The notes below the pieces were generated by a model that saw only the letters and a program-made list of their open reading frames with translations, ran no database searches and was not told where the DNA came from. A program made the translations under genes and the position numbers. From Cellulomonas sp. KRMCY2 (GTDB lineage Bacteria; Actinomycetota; Actinomycetes; Actinomycetales; Cellulomonadaceae), in assembly GCF_000526515.1 (NCBI RefSeq), contig NZ_JAGF01000001.1, positions 3,162,001-3,226,000 of the forward strand: 64,000 nucleotides of DNA, written 5' to 3'. Position 1 is the first letter of the stretch. Each line of letters begins with the position of its first letter. Shown here piece after piece: positions 43,949 through 48,891 of the stretch.

Positions 43949-43954
43949 GTGCTC

Positions 43955-44956
43955 ATGCCTCCAGCTCCTCGACGCCCGGCCGGCATGACGACGAGCTGGG
44001 ACCAGGTCGAACCCGCCCCCCTCGTGCTCATCACCGGGACCGAGGCGCTGCTCGCCGAGCGGGCCGTCGAGCGGCTCATCGCCCAGGCACGGCAGGCGGA
44101 TCCTGCTGTGGAGGTCACGCGGCTCGAGGGCGCCGCCTACGAGGCAGGTCGGCTCCGGGTCGCGACCAGCCCTTCACTCTTCGGCGAGGCACGAGTCGTC
44201 GTGCTCACGGACCTGAACACCGGGACGGAGCAGGCGCTGGCCGATGTCGTCGCCTACGTCGACGAGCCGTCGCCCGACGTCGTGCTGGTGCTGCAGCACG
44301 GGGGAGGGGTGCGCGGGAAGAAGACCCTCGACGCCGTCCGGGCCGCCGGGGCGGTCGTGGTGTCCTGTGAGCCCGTGAAGCGGGATGCCGACAAGTACGC
44401 CTTCGCGGTCGCGGAGCTGAGCCGCAGCGGCCGCAAGGCCGAGCCGGACGCCCTTCGTGCCCTCGTCGAGGCGTGCGGTGCCGACCTGCGCGAGCTCGCA
44501 GCCGCGTGTCTCCAGCTGGTCGCGGACACTGCCGGCAGGATCTCGCTGGATGTCGTGACCCGCTACTACGCGGGCCGGGTCGAGGCGAGCGGCTTCCGGG
44601 TGGCCGATGCAGCGGTCGAGGGGAACGCGGGCCAGGCGGTCGCCCTCTTGCGGCATGCGCTGGCCACCGGCTCGGACCCGGTCCCGATCGTCGCAGCCCT
44701 CGCAGCCAAGCTGCGGAGCCTCGCCAAGGTCGCCGCCGCACGTGGGCGCGGGCTGGACCCGGTGCGTGACCTCGGGCTGGCGCCGTGGCAGGTGGACCGG
44801 GCCCGCCGTGAGCTCCACAGCTGGACGCCGGAGTCGCTCGCCTCGGCCATCGTCGCCGTCGCTCAGGCCGACGCCGAGGTCAAGGGCGCCGGTCGCGACC
44901 CGGTCTTCGCCGTCGAGCGGGCCGTCCTACGTGTCGCGGCCGCCTCAGGTCGCTGA
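43955..44956 (+). CDS. holA: DNA polymerase III subunit delta
   Basis: Clamp-loader delta subunit that opens the sliding clamp. LVLITGTEALLAERAVERLI, the central CEPVKRDADKYAFAVAEL and the C-terminal KLRSLAKVAAARGRG segments match actinobacterial HolA. 333 residues. The gene lies between comEC and rpsT, the standard neighbourhood, with the XRE locus inserted between it and rpsT. Confidence 0.92.
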   Translation: MPPAPRRPAGMTTSWDQVEPAPLVLITGTEALLAERAVERLIAQARQADPAVEVTRLEGAAYEAGRLRVATSPSLFGEARVVVLTDLNTGTEQALADVVAYVDEPSPDVVLVLQHGGGVRGKKTLDAVRAAGAVVVSCEPVKRDADKYAFAVAELSRSGRKAEPDALRALVEACGADLRELAAACLQLVADTAGRISLDVVTRYYAGRVEASGFRVADAAVEGNAGQAVALLRHALATGSDPVPIVAALAAKLRSLAKVAAARGRGLDPVRDLGLAPWQVDRARRELHSWTPESLASAIVAVAQADAEVKGAGRDPVFAVERAVLRVAAASGR

Positions 44957-45000
44957 CCGAACGTCGGCCACCCGCCCTGGCGTCCGCCCCGTGCCCGTCC

Positions 45001-45071
45001 GTCGACCAGCCCGTCGACCGGCCGTCACGATGCCGGCGACCGCCCGTCGACCAGCCCCGTCGACCGGCCGT
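45001..45071 (+). repeat. Imperfect 25-bp direct repeat
   Basis: Unit 1 (45001-45025) and unit 2 (45046-45071) differ by one inserted C; each holds two GTCGAC palindromes. Confidence 0.8.
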
Positions 45072-45268
45072 CTCGAGCCCGACGACGACCCCCGAGAGTC
45101 AATCCGGCTGTGACAGACCGGGCGGGTCCGGGCGGCGCTGTCGGCCAGGAGCGGGGCGAGCGCCGACGATGCCGGCGCGGATTGCGAAGAATGTGTTAAA
45201 TGTGCCGCTGACCTGGGCAAAGACCATGGACAGATGGCCGTGCGCTCGTGGCGAACCTGCTCGTATCG

Positions 45269-45287
45269 TGTCATAGTGATCGTGACA
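45269..45287. promoter_or_regulatory. Inverted half-sites TGTCA-N9-TGACA at the peptide promoter
   Basis: The half-sites lie 32 bp before the peptide ATG, with a possible -10 (CATAGT) at 45272-45277. The same half-sites, 19 bp apart, surround the -10 of the downstream XRE gene. Confidence 0.45.
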
Positions 45288-45318
45288 GCGACCAACCCCC
45301 AGCAATGAGGAGATCATC

Positions 45319-45447
45319 ATGAACCGCACCGTCAAGGCTCTCGCCGCCGCCATCCTGACCCTCGGACTTGCCGTCGCCGGCCTCCCGCTCGGCGCCGGCG
45401 GGGCCACGACGCTCGGTGGCACCGGCTGCTGCCGTACCGCCGTGTGA
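45319..45447 (+). CDS. Small secreted peptide precursor, 42 aa
   Basis: Starts at ATG 45319 with GAGGAG 6 nt upstream. MNRTVK is followed by a hydrophobic Ala/Leu stretch (LAAAILTLGLAVAGLPL) and a small-residue region, as in a signal peptide. The remainder is short and ends TTLGGTGCCRTAV with an adjacent Cys pair. Third codon positions are almost all G/C, supporting real coding. It lies 130 bp before, and on the same strand as, an XRE-TPR regulator. A pheromone precursor is the hypothesis that best fits; a short secreted or leader peptide of other function is possible. Confidence 0.6.
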   Translation: MNRTVKALAAAILTLGLAVAGLPLGAGGATTLGGTGCCRTAV

Positions 45448-45554
45448 GATAGGTCGAGCAGTCGCCCGCCAGGTCTGGTCGGGGCCGTCGTCGTCGGCGG
45501 CCCTGCCGACCCTTTCACCCGATCGGATGGCTCCACCCCCTGCCGGTACCTGGT

Positions 45555-45583
45555 TGTCAAGGATAGGATGACCGACTGTGACA
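45555..45583. promoter_or_regulatory. XRE promoter with TGTCA-N19-TGACA half-sites
   Basis: The -10 TAGGAT (45564-45569) lies between the half-sites TGTCA (45555-45559) and TGACA (45579-45583), and ends 8 nt before GTG 45578. The second half-site is inside the first codons, so the site could serve autorepression of a leaderless gene. Confidence 0.45.
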
Positions 45584-46942
45584 GAACTCTCGGATCGCCT
45601 TCGGGCCGAACGAACCCGTGCCGGCCTCTCGCAGACCGCGCTGGCAGGTGACGACTTCTCGCCCAGCTACATCTCGCTGATCGAGGCCGGGCGTCGCGTG
45701 CCGACGGACGGTGCGCTGAAGATCCTCGCCGCGCGGGTCGGCACCACCGCCGACTACCTGCGGCACGGCGACAAGGCGCCGAGCGAGGAGCGCGCGCGGA
45801 TGGAGATCGGCTTCGCGCGGCTCGCCCTGGCGAACGGCGCGGCTGCCGAGGCCCGCGACCGGCTGCTCGCGCTCGACCTCTCGACCGTGGCGCCCCGGCA
45901 CCACGCGGAGGCCCTGCGTGCCCTCGCGCAGGCCCATGAGGCGCTCGGCGACCTCGAGGAGTCCGTCGCCGTGCTCGAGCCGCTGCTCGCCGACGCCCGC
46001 TCGCACGGCCGGTCGCTCGAGGCGGCCGCCCTGGCCAGCGACCTCGTGGCGTCCTATCACGAGGCCGGCGACGTCTCGCACAGCATCGAGCTCGGTGAGC
46101 AGGTGCTCGCCGAGATCGAGAAGGACGGGATCGCGGCGACCGACGAGCACCTTCGCCTGGCGTCGACCATCCTGTGGTCCTACTACGAGCGGGGCGACCT
46201 GCTCTTCGCGACGCACCGGGTCGCGGAGCTGATCGAGCTCGCCGAGTCCAAGGGCTCGATGCGAGGTCGCGGCAGCATCTACTGGAACGCGGCGATGATC
46301 GCCGAGGGTCGTGGCGAGTTCGCCGAGGCGCGACGGCTGACCGAACGCGCTCTGGCGTACCTCAGCGAGGGTGCAGCCAGCCGGGACCTCCCGCGACTTC
46401 GCCTGCACTACGGCTGGTTGCTGCTGCGCAGCGCCCCGCCCGACCCCGTCGCTGCGCTCGAGCAGCTGGGTCACGCCGCCAAGGACCTCGAGTACGTCGG
46501 CTCGGAGAACGAGCTCGCGCGCTGCTCGTACGAGTCGGGGCGGGCGTACCTCATGCTCGGCGACCCGCACCGGGCCGAGGAGCTCGCCCGCGAGGGTCTC
46601 GCGCACCTGGGTGATACCGGCGGCTACGACGCGTGCGACGGCCAGATCGTGCTGGGCGACGCGCTGGCGGCGCTCGGCGACGTCGAGGGCGCCAAGGCCG
46701 CGTACAGCTGGGCCGCCGACCGGCTCGCCATGATGTCGGCGGGTCGCCAGGCAGCGTCCGTCTGGCGATCGCTCGCCGATCGGATGATCGAGCAGGGCGA
46801 CACCGCCGGGGCAGCCAAGGCCTACGAGACCGCTCTGCGGGAGGCCGGGATCCGTCCGACGACCTTCCCGGTGATCGCCCCGCAGGCGGTCACTGCGGGC
46901 TTCGCGGAGACGCTCGAGTCCTGGGAGGCGTCGGACTCCTGA
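45578..46942 (+). CDS. XRE-family regulator with TPR domain
   Basis: 454 residues. A helix-turn-helix of the XRE/Cro class covers ~5-60 (LRAERTRAGLSQTALAG, SPSYISLIEAGRRVPT). From ~70 to 430 there are about nine helical pairs of TPR type (AEALRALAQAHEALGDLEES, ARCSYESGRAYLMLGDPHRA, DGQIVLGDALAALGDVEGA). This HTH-TPR layout is that of RRNPP peptide receptors such as Rgg, PlcR and NprR. The GTG start is set by a leaderless -10. A 42-aa secreted-peptide gene precedes it. Whether it binds that peptide is inference. Confidence 0.85.
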   Translation: MTELSDRLRAERTRAGLSQTALAGDDFSPSYISLIEAGRRVPTDGALKILAARVGTTADYLRHGDKAPSEERARMEIGFARLALANGAAAEARDRLLALDLSTVAPRHHAEALRALAQAHEALGDLEESVAVLEPLLADARSHGRSLEAAALASDLVASYHEAGDVSHSIELGEQVLAEIEKDGIAATDEHLRLASTILWSYYERGDLLFATHRVAELIELAESKGSMRGRGSIYWNAAMIAEGRGEFAEARRLTERALAYLSEGAASRDLPRLRLHYGWLLLRSAPPDPVAALEQLGHAAKDLEYVGSENELARCSYESGRAYLMLGDPHRAEELAREGLAHLGDTGGYDACDGQIVLGDALAALGDVEGAKAAYSWAADRLAMMSAGRQAASVWRSLADRMIEQGDTAGAAKAYETALREAGIRPTTFPVIAPQAVTAGFAETLESWEASDS

Positions 46943-47009
46943 ACGGCGCTCGGCTGAGCGCGACGACCGGGGCTGGCGAGCAGGGGGCGCCAGCGCTGGA
47001 AGGTCGGGT

Positions 47010-47690
47010 TCAGCGGGCCACGGGCGCGCGCGGCGACGGGATCGTCGCAGCTGTGCTCGCCGCCGTCCTTGCCGACGACGTCGTCCCCCCCACCGTCTTG
47101 GGGGTCCAGGAGCGTGCGACGGGTCGACGGCTCATGATCGGTGTGCGGTTCAGGACCTGCGTCGCCTCGAGGTGGTTGCCCTGGAAGAGGTCGAAGCCGA
47201 GGGCGCGGCAGCGCTCCCACTCGGCAGCGGTCTCGATCCGCTCCGCGACCAGTGTCGCGCCGTACGTCCTGGCCAGGTCGACCAGAGCCGGCCCACGGAC
47301 GAGGTCCCGCCGGTCGATCGTGACGTAGTCGGCGTAGGGCAGGAGCGGGAGCTGGCTGTCGAGCCCGACGAAGTCGTCGATCGCGATCCGGAAGCCTTGG
47401 GCACGGAGGGTCGCGACACCACGGACGACGGCCGCGTCCGCGCGGACGGACTCGACGACCTCGATCACGAGGTGCCCGGGCCGGGGCGGAACGGGGAGGT
47501 CGGAGACCAGGAGCGACCGTGTGAGGCTCACGAAGACCAGCGCGTGGGCGGCGACCGACTGCACGCCGGTCCCGCTGAAGGTCGCTTCGAGCACCCGGAG
47601 CGTCGCGCGATCCTGTGCCGCGGCCGACCAGCGGTCGACCCGCAGGGTGTGCTCGCGGCCGGCTCGGTACAGGAACTCGTAGCCGTGCAC
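47010..47690 (-). CDS. EAL-domain-like protein, start unclear, probably degenerate
   Basis: Resembles the EAL half of YuxH-type EAL-HDOD proteins (VHGYEFLYRAG, LVIEVVESVRAD, FRIAIDDFVGLDSQ, TLVAERIETAAEWERC, GFDLFQGN). Catalytic features are altered: EFL stands for EAL and DDFV for DDFG, so cyclic-di-GMP hydrolysis is unlikely. The HDOD domain is missing and the last ~45 residues are Thr/Ser/Arg-rich without family likeness. Domain-like coding (RRFVGRQGIFTESGD) continues upstream to about 47780, but no in-frame ATG, GTG or TTG exists there. It may be a decaying gene or use CTG 47798. Confidence 0.55.
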   Translation of the reverse strand: MHGYEFLYRAGREHTLRVDRWSAAAQDRATLRVLEATFSGTGVQSVAAHALVFVSLTRSLLVSDLPVPPRPGHLVIEVVESVRADAAVVRGVATLRAQGFRIAIDDFVGLDSQLPLLPYADYVTIDRRDLVRGPALVDLARTYGATLVAERIETAAEWERCRALGFDLFQGNHLEATQVLNRTPIMSRRPVARSWTPKTVGGTTSSARTAASTAATIPSPRAPVAR

Positions 47691-47895
47691 GTCACCGCTC
47701 TCGGTGAAGATCCCCTGCCTACCGACGAAGCGGCGCGGGCTGATCCCGGTGGCGGGGTGCGAGAAGGCGCCGTCGACGACCGTCGGGCCAGGAGTCAGGG
47801 ACGCAGGGCTCTGCGCGGCTGATGAGACACCGACGGCGCCACCGCATGACGCGTGTGACGCCGTCGACTTCTCGCGGACCTGCTGCGAGGTGCGC

Positions 47896-48156
47896 TCAGA
47901 GCGCGCTGACCTGCTTCGCGAGGGCCGACTTGCGGTTCGCAGCCTGGTTGGCGTGGATGACGCCCTTGCTCACTGCCTTGTCGATCTTTGTCGATGCGCT
48001 GCGCAGTGCCTCGCTCGCCGCGTCCTTGTCGCCTGCGGCGACGGCCTCGCGAACCCGACGCACGTGCGTCTTGAGCTCGGACTTGACGGCCTTGTTGCGG
48101 ACGCGCGCCAGCTCGTTGGTGCGGATGCGCTTGATCTGGGACTTGATGTTCGCCAC
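47896..48156 (-). CDS. rpsT: 30S ribosomal protein S20
   Basis: 86-residue basic protein of the small subunit. [20 protein letters not shown] and the [15 protein letters not shown] tail are signature segments. The GTG start at 48156 follows a GAGAG element. The ~210-bp region upstream (48157-48366) holds its leader and promoter; ATAACAT near 48295 on the minus strand is a possible -10. Confidence 0.97.
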
Positions 48157-48366
48157 GTGTGGACTCTCTTGTGCGTTCGCCGAAGCGATCTGACAGGTCT
48201 AGAGGGCGCGTCCAGCTCCGGGACTGGGGCGTGGGGACACCCGCGGAGAGGAGCTGGGGTTGTGCCCGCCGACCTGGGCGGACACGCGAACTCGGATGTT
48301 ATCAGCAGACCGCTGCCAGGGGCGATTCCGCGCCTGGCAGGCGGCCCGACGACGGGTTCTGCGCCG

Positions 48367-48891
48367 TCATCCGAGCCGGTCGGAGATCATCGCGAACCGG
48401 GTGCGGTCGAGGACGGAACCCTCCCGTCGGACCGCCGCCGGGTCCAGCCGCAGGATCCGGTCGAGGCGGACCTCGCTCGGCCGGCGCCGGGAGTCCCAGT
48501 CGCCCACGCCGAGGTCGATCCAGGTCTCGCCGTTACGGGCGGGCTGGGCGTCGTGGTCCCGGCTGCTCAGGATGAGACCGAGCAGCCAGTCCCCGTCGTG
48601 CCCCACGAGGAGGACCGGCCGGTCCTTGCCGCGGGTGGCGTCCTCCTCGTAGGGGACCCAGGTCCAGACGATCTCGCCCGGGTCCGGTGAACCGTCCCGA
48701 TGCGGCGCGTAGACCGGATGGACGACACCGGTGAAGTCGCCCGGGTAGCCGGCGGCAGCAGCACGGCCGACCGGCTTCGCCTTGCTGGCACGCCCGTCGC
48801 CGGACGACCCGCGCCGATCCTTCGCGGTGACCCCGGACAGACCGCGGACCGTAGCCCCGAGCAGCCGGGCGACGAGGGAGGAGGTGCTCAC
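48367..48891 (-). CDS. PemK/MazF-like protein
   Basis: 174 residues. After a basic, non-conserved N-terminus (~45) comes the MazF-like barrel: GEIVWTWVPYEED, GKDRPVLLVGHDGDWLLGLILSSR, then RRPSEVRLDRILRLDPAAV. MazF toxins cut mRNA at specific sequences. No antitoxin gene adjoins it; the gene upstream on the same strand is dodecin, 24 nt away. Orphan homologues next to lepA are common in Actinobacteria, so a housekeeping role is possible. Confidence 0.75.
   Translation of the reverse strand: MSTSSLVARLLGATVRGLSGVTAKDRRGSSGDGRASKAKPVGRAAAAGYPGDFTGVVHPVYAPHRDGSPDPGEIVWTWVPYEEDATRGKDRPVLLVGHDGDWLLGLILSSRDHDAQPARNGETWIDLGVGDWDSRRRPSEVRLDRILRLDPAAVRREGSVLDRTRFAMISDRLG

Follow-up and report, generated by a model that had tools for sequence, protein, structure and literature searches.

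Peptide-receptor pairs of the RRNPP(A) group are known from Bacillota, with PlcR-PapR, NprR-NprX, Rgg-SHP, Rap-Phr and AimR-AimP as members. Here we describe a locus of Cellulomonas sp. KRMCY2 (Actinomycetota), lying in a window of 64,000 nucleotides (i.e. the whole stretch of DNA analyzed, positions 3,162,001 to 3,226,000 of contig NZ_JAGF01000001.1; all positions below are those of the window), in which a 42-codon open reading frame (ORF) precedes the gene of a regulator with a helix-turn-helix (HTH) and tetratricopeptide repeats (TPR). As judged from comparisons between genomes, this ORF is a real, conserved small secreted-type peptide gene paired with the HTH-TPR regulator, and the pair is probably best explained as a regulatory circuit of peptide and receptor resembling those of the RRNPP group.

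Signals in Actinomycetota are typically small molecules made by enzymes, and peptide signals are described for Bacillota, according to the RRNPP_Detector article (PMC10075063). A review from 2016 on quorum sensing in actinobacteria mentions butyrolactones and, in general terms, cyclic or modified peptides. The text of a paper on RRNPPA evolution holds no word starting with "actino", and no report of such a system in Actinomycetota was found among the matches listed for the open-access literature without preprints.

The product of the small ORF, MNRTVKALAAAILTLGLAVAGLPLGAGGATTLGGTGCCRTAV, has a signal-peptide-like N-terminus, as assessed from charge and hydropathy only, and ends in GTGCCRTAV, with the two Cys codons situated at 45427-45432. 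Its G+C content is 0.88 in third, 0.71 in first and 0.67 in second codon positions, a ribosome-binding site is found in front of it, and a gap of 130 bases separates it from the GTG start of the regulator gene on the same strand, all as described in an initial annotation made from the sequence alone. Orthologous regulators without a nearby small ORF, or loss of its frame, would according to that annotation have spoken against a peptide-signaling pair; instead, an in-frame ORF encoding GCC (here the residues Gly-Cys-Cys) is kept at 41 out of 41 orthologous loci read.

These orthologues were collected at the level of the family. The regulator was matched in all 19 genomes of the genus (once truncated by a contig end), with high-scoring matches in further genera of the family; 77 of 150 genomes passed an E-value of 1e-3, many by short HTH matches only, and named relatives include Actinotalea and Cellulomonas strains. 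With second copies of loci already included (L001-L006 and L039-L045) excluded from the counts, an upstream ORF on the same strand, hydrophobic in its N-terminal part and encoding GCC close to the stop codon, was found at 32 of 32 distinct first loci (L007-L038), at 37 of 37 when L046-L050 were added, and also in four later orthologues (L158-L160 and L258). The peptide alignment of the 37 loci has no frame breaks and an invariant Cys-Cys pair, and GCC is followed by two, four or five residues, the first of which is R in 18, K in 17, T in one and L in one. The signal of purifying selection, measured as the ratio of nonsynonymous to synonymous differences (pN/pS), is weak for the whole small ORF, with 0.83 in the genus and 0.96 in the family; for its last eight residues the values are lower, 0.56 and 0.60, respectively.

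A small hydrophobic ORF adjoining an XRE-type gene would also suit a toxin-antitoxin-like pair, in which a small membrane-active toxin is combined with an antitoxin-like XRE repressor. We regard this as very improbable, as constraint is stronger on the tail than on the remainder of the ORF (pN 0.18 vs 0.34 in the genus), AxA-type cleavage sites are seen by eye ahead of the tail in many members, and the chromosomal position between holA and rpsT is conserved in the family. A long TPR domain is not known as an antitoxin feature.

Outside the family, 23 of 396 order genomes and 62 of 394 class genomes matched the regulator at 1e-25, and on a first reading of L046-L097 most homologues had CC endings beside them. 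A detector, fixed before the 39 loci L098-L136 were read, accepted ORFs of 28-85 codons with a net positive and hydrophobic N-terminus and CC inside the last eight residues. It gave a match at most 1.3 kb from the regulator at 101 of 123 distinct homologous HTH-TPR loci, or 99 without two matches judged doubtful (L124 and L133); outside the 37 orthologous loci the count was 65 of 86, and at L098-L136 22 of 39 (63 and 20, respectively, without the doubtful two). As a control, 400 kb of sequence was drawn from arbitrary places in 14 genomes; it gave only one match, a GTG ORF lacking a ribosome-binding site, and hence a chance expectation of about 0.8 loci (123 x 2.6 kb x 1/400 kb). GC-rich genomes are rich in spurious ORFs, with 55 ORFs of at least 25 codons in 5 kb here, and a chance ORF or annotation artefact might on that account be suspected; this is refuted by the homologue comparison and by the family alignment free of frame breaks, which leave it next to no probability.

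Distributed over the family codes, detector matches were found at 36 of 37 loci in f1, 5/5 in the f1 paralogue, 7/9 in f15, 1/1 in f16, 3/3 in f18, 2/3 in f27, 5/5 in f32, 9/18 in f35 (labeled Streptomyces-like by inference), 20/21 in f38, 1/1 in f39, 8/11 in f45, 1/1 in f46, 3/5 in f54 and 0/3 in f35q. Two loci truncated by contig ends (L070 and L071) were scored as misses, as was L027 although its peptide is visible. Loci read later (L158-L175 and L258-L273) stand outside the 123, among them the further class locus L175, which has a CC peptide, and L259, a second f1 paralogue whose CC peptide ends in ASPCCKAM. L137 overlaps L056/L065, and two more matches of its genome (G225) within it were left uncounted. 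The Cys codons of the class set (n=110) are TGC-TGC in 103 cases, TGT-TGC in six and TGC-TGT in one, as expected for GC-rich DNA.

In the window, the detector reported a single signal-like ORF ending in CC, namely the one at 45319-45447. The genome of Cellulomonas sp. KRMCY2, to which the PF01381 and PF00496 searches were confined, has 26 HTH_3 (PF01381) loci, and a CC peptide occurs at the 45319 locus alone; the pairing there is therefore not general to XRE genes. The same genome encodes four oligopeptide-binding-type proteins (SBP_bac_5, PF00496).

Several loci carry more than one copy of a component. Four tandem precursor genes with the similar endings ASPCCKQAIR, LSPCCKSAIR and ASPCCKSAGQ are situated downstream of one regulator paralogue (L066, L067), while four f38 loci (L081, L087, L090 and L092) have, besides the divergent precursor, an extra convergent one behind the regulator, ending in GGSDFCC, GGSDYCC or GGSLYCC. 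Two tandem regulator copies with a CC peptide near each occur in G290 (L054/L062), and four homologous stretches in G225 (L137), where one CC peptide was seen in 8.5 kb. Plasmids also harbor the pair: the hypothetical protein WP_008741297.1 on Streptomyces goshikiensis plasmid NZ_CP108058 (L176) ends in DIPLCC, WP_331750220.1 on a plasmid of Streptomyces sp. NBC_01707 ends in LPLCC (approximately 1.9 kb downstream, with one gene intervening), and a Nonomuraea gerenzanensis plasmid record contains an unannotated peptide ending in TGDAGCC. In the vicinity of the L176 pair are a BTAD-domain regulator and genes resembling those of sugar metabolism, a setting which hints at control of specialized metabolism; an adjoining small ORF there is also signal-like at its start. 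A phage-borne form of the system was rejected, the sole lead being an unannotated faecal contig (MT836207) with a match that extends almost to the contig end and no detectable peptide in the stretch retrieved.

All four possible arrangements of the peptide ORF relative to the regulator gene occur, i.e. upstream, downstream, divergent and convergent. On a FastTree phylogeny of 140 regulators (102 with CC peptides, 17 with aromatic-proline endings and 21 with neither), from which L025, L065, L070, L071, L100-L102, L134-L136 and L207 were left out, as was L226 for a stop, parsimony requires at least seven changes of orientation and 13 of peptide type, with long branches that make deep placements unsure. 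A cis-acting leader would hardly survive so many changes of orientation, and the peptide consequently most likely acts in trans. This bears on a further explanation, according to which the small ORF serves as an attenuator responsive to cysteine, with ribosome stalling at its two Cys codons controlling the downstream gene in cis. Consecutive Cys codons near the stop codon, in an ORF that in the family is upstream and on the same strand, are what such an attenuator would look like. In most families outside f1, however, the ORF has a divergent, convergent or downstream placement and cannot lead the regulator mRNA, and attenuation was rejected on these data; the regulator moreover has its own operator and -10-like box behind the ORF, the signal-like N-terminus is kept, and some relatives do without the Cys pair. 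Attenuation is accordingly given hardly any weight.

Inverted repeats of the form GTCA-N9-TGAC are found at three positions of the locus, O2 and O3 coinciding with the presumed promoters of the peptide and regulator genes (Table 1). All three matches to the pattern in the window fall in this locus, inside 475 bases; three or more matches also appeared in 16 of 100 shuffles of the window, a comparison that concerns their count and not their clustering. Across 37 family loci, O2 is present in 33, O3 in 28 and O1 in 25, against 12 matches in 400 kb of control sequence. O1 lies 142-193 bp upstream of O2 in its 25 loci (164-165 bp in 10 of them). In the O2 -10-like box the last T is present in 33 of 33 sites, the other positions being less constant, while in the O3 box the first T is kept in 27 of 28 sites and the A and the last T in all 28. 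Only eight bases separate the TAGGAT box from the GTG of the regulator gene, from which a leaderless regulator mRNA is likely. A stricter form, TGTCA-N9-TGACA, marks the peptide promoter of 18 out of 19 genus genomes and is near-unique per genome; a wider regulon was not apparent, as the six extra exact sites, one each in six of the 19 genomes, equal the six matches of a reversed control. From the pairing and the presence of sites at its own promoter, we infer that the regulator binds these repeats. The divergent gap of f38 shows strong conservation, and an inverted repeat, GGACT...AGTCC, can be read there by eye.

Endings other than GCC also occur. A clade of seven f35 loci has a divergent ORF with a like signal sequence in all seven and no terminal CC; the endings include SFGWNHPG, AGPWGYPI, SAWNGPW, GWGWPG, SPWQWPI and GWVYPG, with an aromatic-proline motif in six of the seven (L120 is without it). 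In a sample of the phylum, 38 of 396 genomes matched the regulator at 1e-30; these matches mark 43 loci, that of the window not included. An adjacent signal-like ORF ending in aromatic-proline or CC was found at 15 of the first 29 of these loci (13 with a ribosome-binding site; the 400 kb control gave one such ORF with a ribosome-binding site) and at five of the remaining 14, four of them with a ribosome-binding site (L260, L263, L265 and L268) and a doubtful one without (L269), which makes a total of 20 out of 43. The precursors are tiny and end in e.g. GYPWPK, ANWPHH, APWPHCC and APFPGCCG. In L265 (G156, a member of the same order but of a different family), a divergent precursor gene lies upstream of the regulator homologue, at a distance of 379 bp, and its product contains IGNWPDPM three times. 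We read this as a probable case of a signal repeated within one precursor, like a multi-copy pheromone precursor; neither an effector nor a leader would readily account for it. Tiny downstream ORFs beside the distant homologues of L217 and L218 (f97), outside the 20 of 43, share the ending WSDGH or WSDGHL, possibly a third kind.

An alternative is that the peptide is an exported effector, be it antimicrobial, metal-binding or membrane-active, and that the regulator controls the peptide gene while sensing something else. XRE repressors are often encoded beside genes of exported effectors, and a signal-like N-terminus together with a Cys pair would be in keeping with an exported peptide that binds metal. 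Very little follows the signal, though, and Cys-free endings in relatives (GYPWPK, GWGWPG, ANWPHH and NWPDPM) mean that metal binding by a Cys pair cannot be the general function, whereas repeated endings within one precursor suit a released signal and endings are alike within receptor clades, as those of a ligand would be. We therefore consider an effector unlikely. Endings such as APWPHCC, NWPKCC and DWPGMCC appear to bridge the CC and aromatic-proline kinds, which may on this ground be homologous. Evenly balanced, in our estimate, is the broader proposal of a phylum-wide lineage of peptide signaling in Actinomycetota that has a receptor family to itself and a C-terminal signal core of [W/F/Y]-P and/or vicinal Cys-Cys (APWPHCC, NWPKCC, DWPGMCC, GSTGCCK, GWGWPG and the threefold NWPDPM).

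In the circuit of the RRNPP type that we favor, the regulator is probably an autorepressor relieved by the matured peptide. A dimer of it would bind GTCA-N9-TGAC and hold down both the peptide gene and its own gene. The precursor would be exported and trimmed to a C-terminal fragment with the Cys pair, which would be taken up again via an oligopeptide permease and, docked on the concave side of the TPR superhelix, alter DNA binding. Positive feedback on the peptide gene would result, along with the switching of neighbors, e.g. the EAL-domain gene. Such a circuit could report cell density or act inside one cell, and work by derepression or by activation.

The architecture of the regulator is compatible with a receptor. 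HTH_3 and TPR_12 Pfam domains were found in all 70 homologues of A2, and AlphaFold2 predicts an HTH-TPR superhelix both for the window regulator (mean predicted local distance difference test, pLDDT, 91.2; predicted template modeling score, pTM, 0.80) and for a distant homologue from the phylum sample (pLDDT 93.9). Among the best 50 matches of a fold search in PDB, PlcR-PapR7-DNA took rank 36 for the window regulator, while for the distant homologue Rap-CSF took ranks 43 and 47 (target TM 0.69-0.70) and PlcR rank 46. Searching a viral fold library gave mostly generic TPR and repeat proteins, and the PDB sequence search an RRNPP-type match only to the HTH of ComR (E 9.4e-4). W236 is kept in 100% and N237 in 94% of the 70 homologues; by analogy with the asparagines of RRNPP receptors, a role in peptide binding may be guessed at. 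That the Cys pair has its partner in a conserved cysteine of the receptor was rejected, as nine of the 70 regulators have no Cys in the aligned part.

Several observations weigh against a circuit of this kind. The translation, export, maturation, import and binding of the peptide are predictions at the level of sequence, based on a precursor with a Sec-type signal-like N-terminus and on the conservation of its short tail (GCC, usually GCC[KR], in the family; terminal CC or aromatic-proline elsewhere). Whole-ORF pN/pS is weak, for which saturation in GC-rich DNA is perhaps responsible, and a sigma-70 consensus scan of the locus gave no promoter. Consensus TPR, LGN and other generic TPR proteins outrank RRNPP members in both fold searches, and the fold alone is consequently not diagnostic. 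No pheromone-receptor model appeared among the NCBIfam matches of nine regulators or among the best 25 of 39 Pfam families, the coverage of these libraries by a fitting model being unchecked; NCBIfam applied to four peptides and the EAL protein gave one weak, meaningless peptide match. A CC peptide is lacking at all 17 loci of a Streptomyces-like paralogue group (L134-L136 and L161-L174), of which the 14 last-named, of the f35q kind, align to the N-terminal half only, and this group may sense something else. L100-L102 have no recognizable peptide, nor do 23 of the 43 phylum loci, at least four of which are truncated by contig ends, and four (L178, L179, L181 and L182) of the seven plasmid loci examined, out of 17 plasmid matches, lack a CC ending.

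The placement of the pair between holA and rpsT, as first annotated, is right as regards the flanks, but a stand-alone EAL-domain gene, not mentioned there, also intervenes on the side between the regulator and the gene that we name rpsT from its product. Of the 41 family loci in this check, six of them second copies, 35 have holA on the upstream side and 39 have rpsT on the downstream side; all six loci without holA have short flanks. The window EAL gene is downstream of and convergent with the regulator gene, while in 16 of 18 family loci outside the genus, as also in L008, an EAL gene precedes the peptide gene in divergent orientation (tblastn, oriented loci). In several of the non-genus loci, O1 read on the minus strand resembles the O2 of the genus (GTCATAG...CATGAC), and the EAL gene may therefore be a target of the system. 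The Pfam match of the window EAL protein spans positions 113-233 of the 236-position profile only, and some residues of active phosphodiesterases presumably are missing, judged by eye; the protein may be non-catalytic. Rfam matched no RNA element at gathering scores over 44900-48300, and a known RNA element at the locus was rejected. Further along, a PemK/MazF-like protein of 174 codons is encoded at 48367-48891 on the minus strand (Pfam 6.1e-8, match residues 70-172).

Table 1. Features of the peptide-regulator locus and its neighbors (window positions).
Feature	Position	Strand	Basis
holA, conserved upstream neighbor	43949..44956	+	Pfam DNA_pol3_delta
O1, operator-like inverted repeat GTCA-N9-TGAC, GTCAATCCGGCTGTGAC	45098..45114		pattern search
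O2, operator-like inverted repeat GTCATAGTGATCGTGAC at peptide promoter	45270..45286		pattern search
-10-like box CATAGT within O2, inferred peptide-gene promoter	45272..45277	+	read from sequence
Ribosome-binding site GAGGAG	45307..45312	+	read from sequence; six bases before peptide ATG
Peptide precursor gene, 42 codons	45319..45447	+	ATG start; ORF list, homologue comparison, detector
O3, operator-like inverted repeat GTCAAGGATAGGATGAC at regulator promoter	45556..45572		pattern search
-10-like box TAGGAT within O3, inferred regulator promoter	45564..45569	+	read from sequence
HTH-TPR regulator, 454 codons, proposed peptide receptor	45578..46942	+	Pfam HTH_31/HTH_3 and TPR, AlphaFold2 model, homologues
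Stand-alone EAL-domain gene, between regulator and rpsT	47010..47690	-	Pfam EAL 3.3e-16
rpsT, conserved downstream neighbor	47896..48156	-	named from product, no family scan

Taken across the genomes compared, the recurrence of tiny peptide and regulator in much of Actinomycetota suggests a widespread, overlooked form of peptide signaling. If this is true, many such pairs, including those of antibiotic-producing Streptomyces, would be unrecognized pheromone systems, and linear precursors with intracellular TPR receptors would add a layer of control in Actinomycetota, perhaps over development and specialized metabolism. Named candidate signals would result, which could be used as synthetic peptides. 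A chemical question would also be posed, i.e. why a signal should end in an adjacent cysteine pair, which may be a redox- or metal-tunable element.

Among known systems, the polycysteine leaderless short ORFs of mycobacteria, which Canestrari et al. in 2020 are said to have described as mediating cysteine-responsive attenuation, are alike in their consecutive Cys codons. They differ in being cis-acting leaders, whereas the present ORFs are variable in orientation and retain a signal-like N-terminus. A similar HTH is found in RamB and other XRE/HTH_3 regulators, but the 25 other HTH_3 loci of the genome are without a CC peptide. Similarity to the NsdA family (NF053720) is weak, with 36.2, 34.0, 22.8, 17.3 and 15.9 bits in five of nine regulators, all far under the cut-off of 75 bits; the window regulator had no match to it and does not qualify as a member. 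From the RRNPP(A) systems the locus differs in its host phylum, Actinomycetota, and in the vicinal C-terminal Cys pair of most members; peptide binding, the decisive feature of the group, is here a prediction. The proposed actinobacterial equivalence to RRNPP is not upheld as family membership, but as a way of working it is supported by the 41 of 41 orthologues, the 101 of 123 homologues, the operators and the varied orientation. Like RRNPP(A) systems, the locus combines a short secreted-type precursor gene with an adjoining TPR receptor gene of HTH-TPR architecture, the conserved part is the C-terminus of the precursor, with aromatic or hydrophobic endings in some clades, precursors may be in tandem (L066, L067) or carry repeated endings (L265), and the predicted fold has PlcR and Rap among its best 50 PDB matches.

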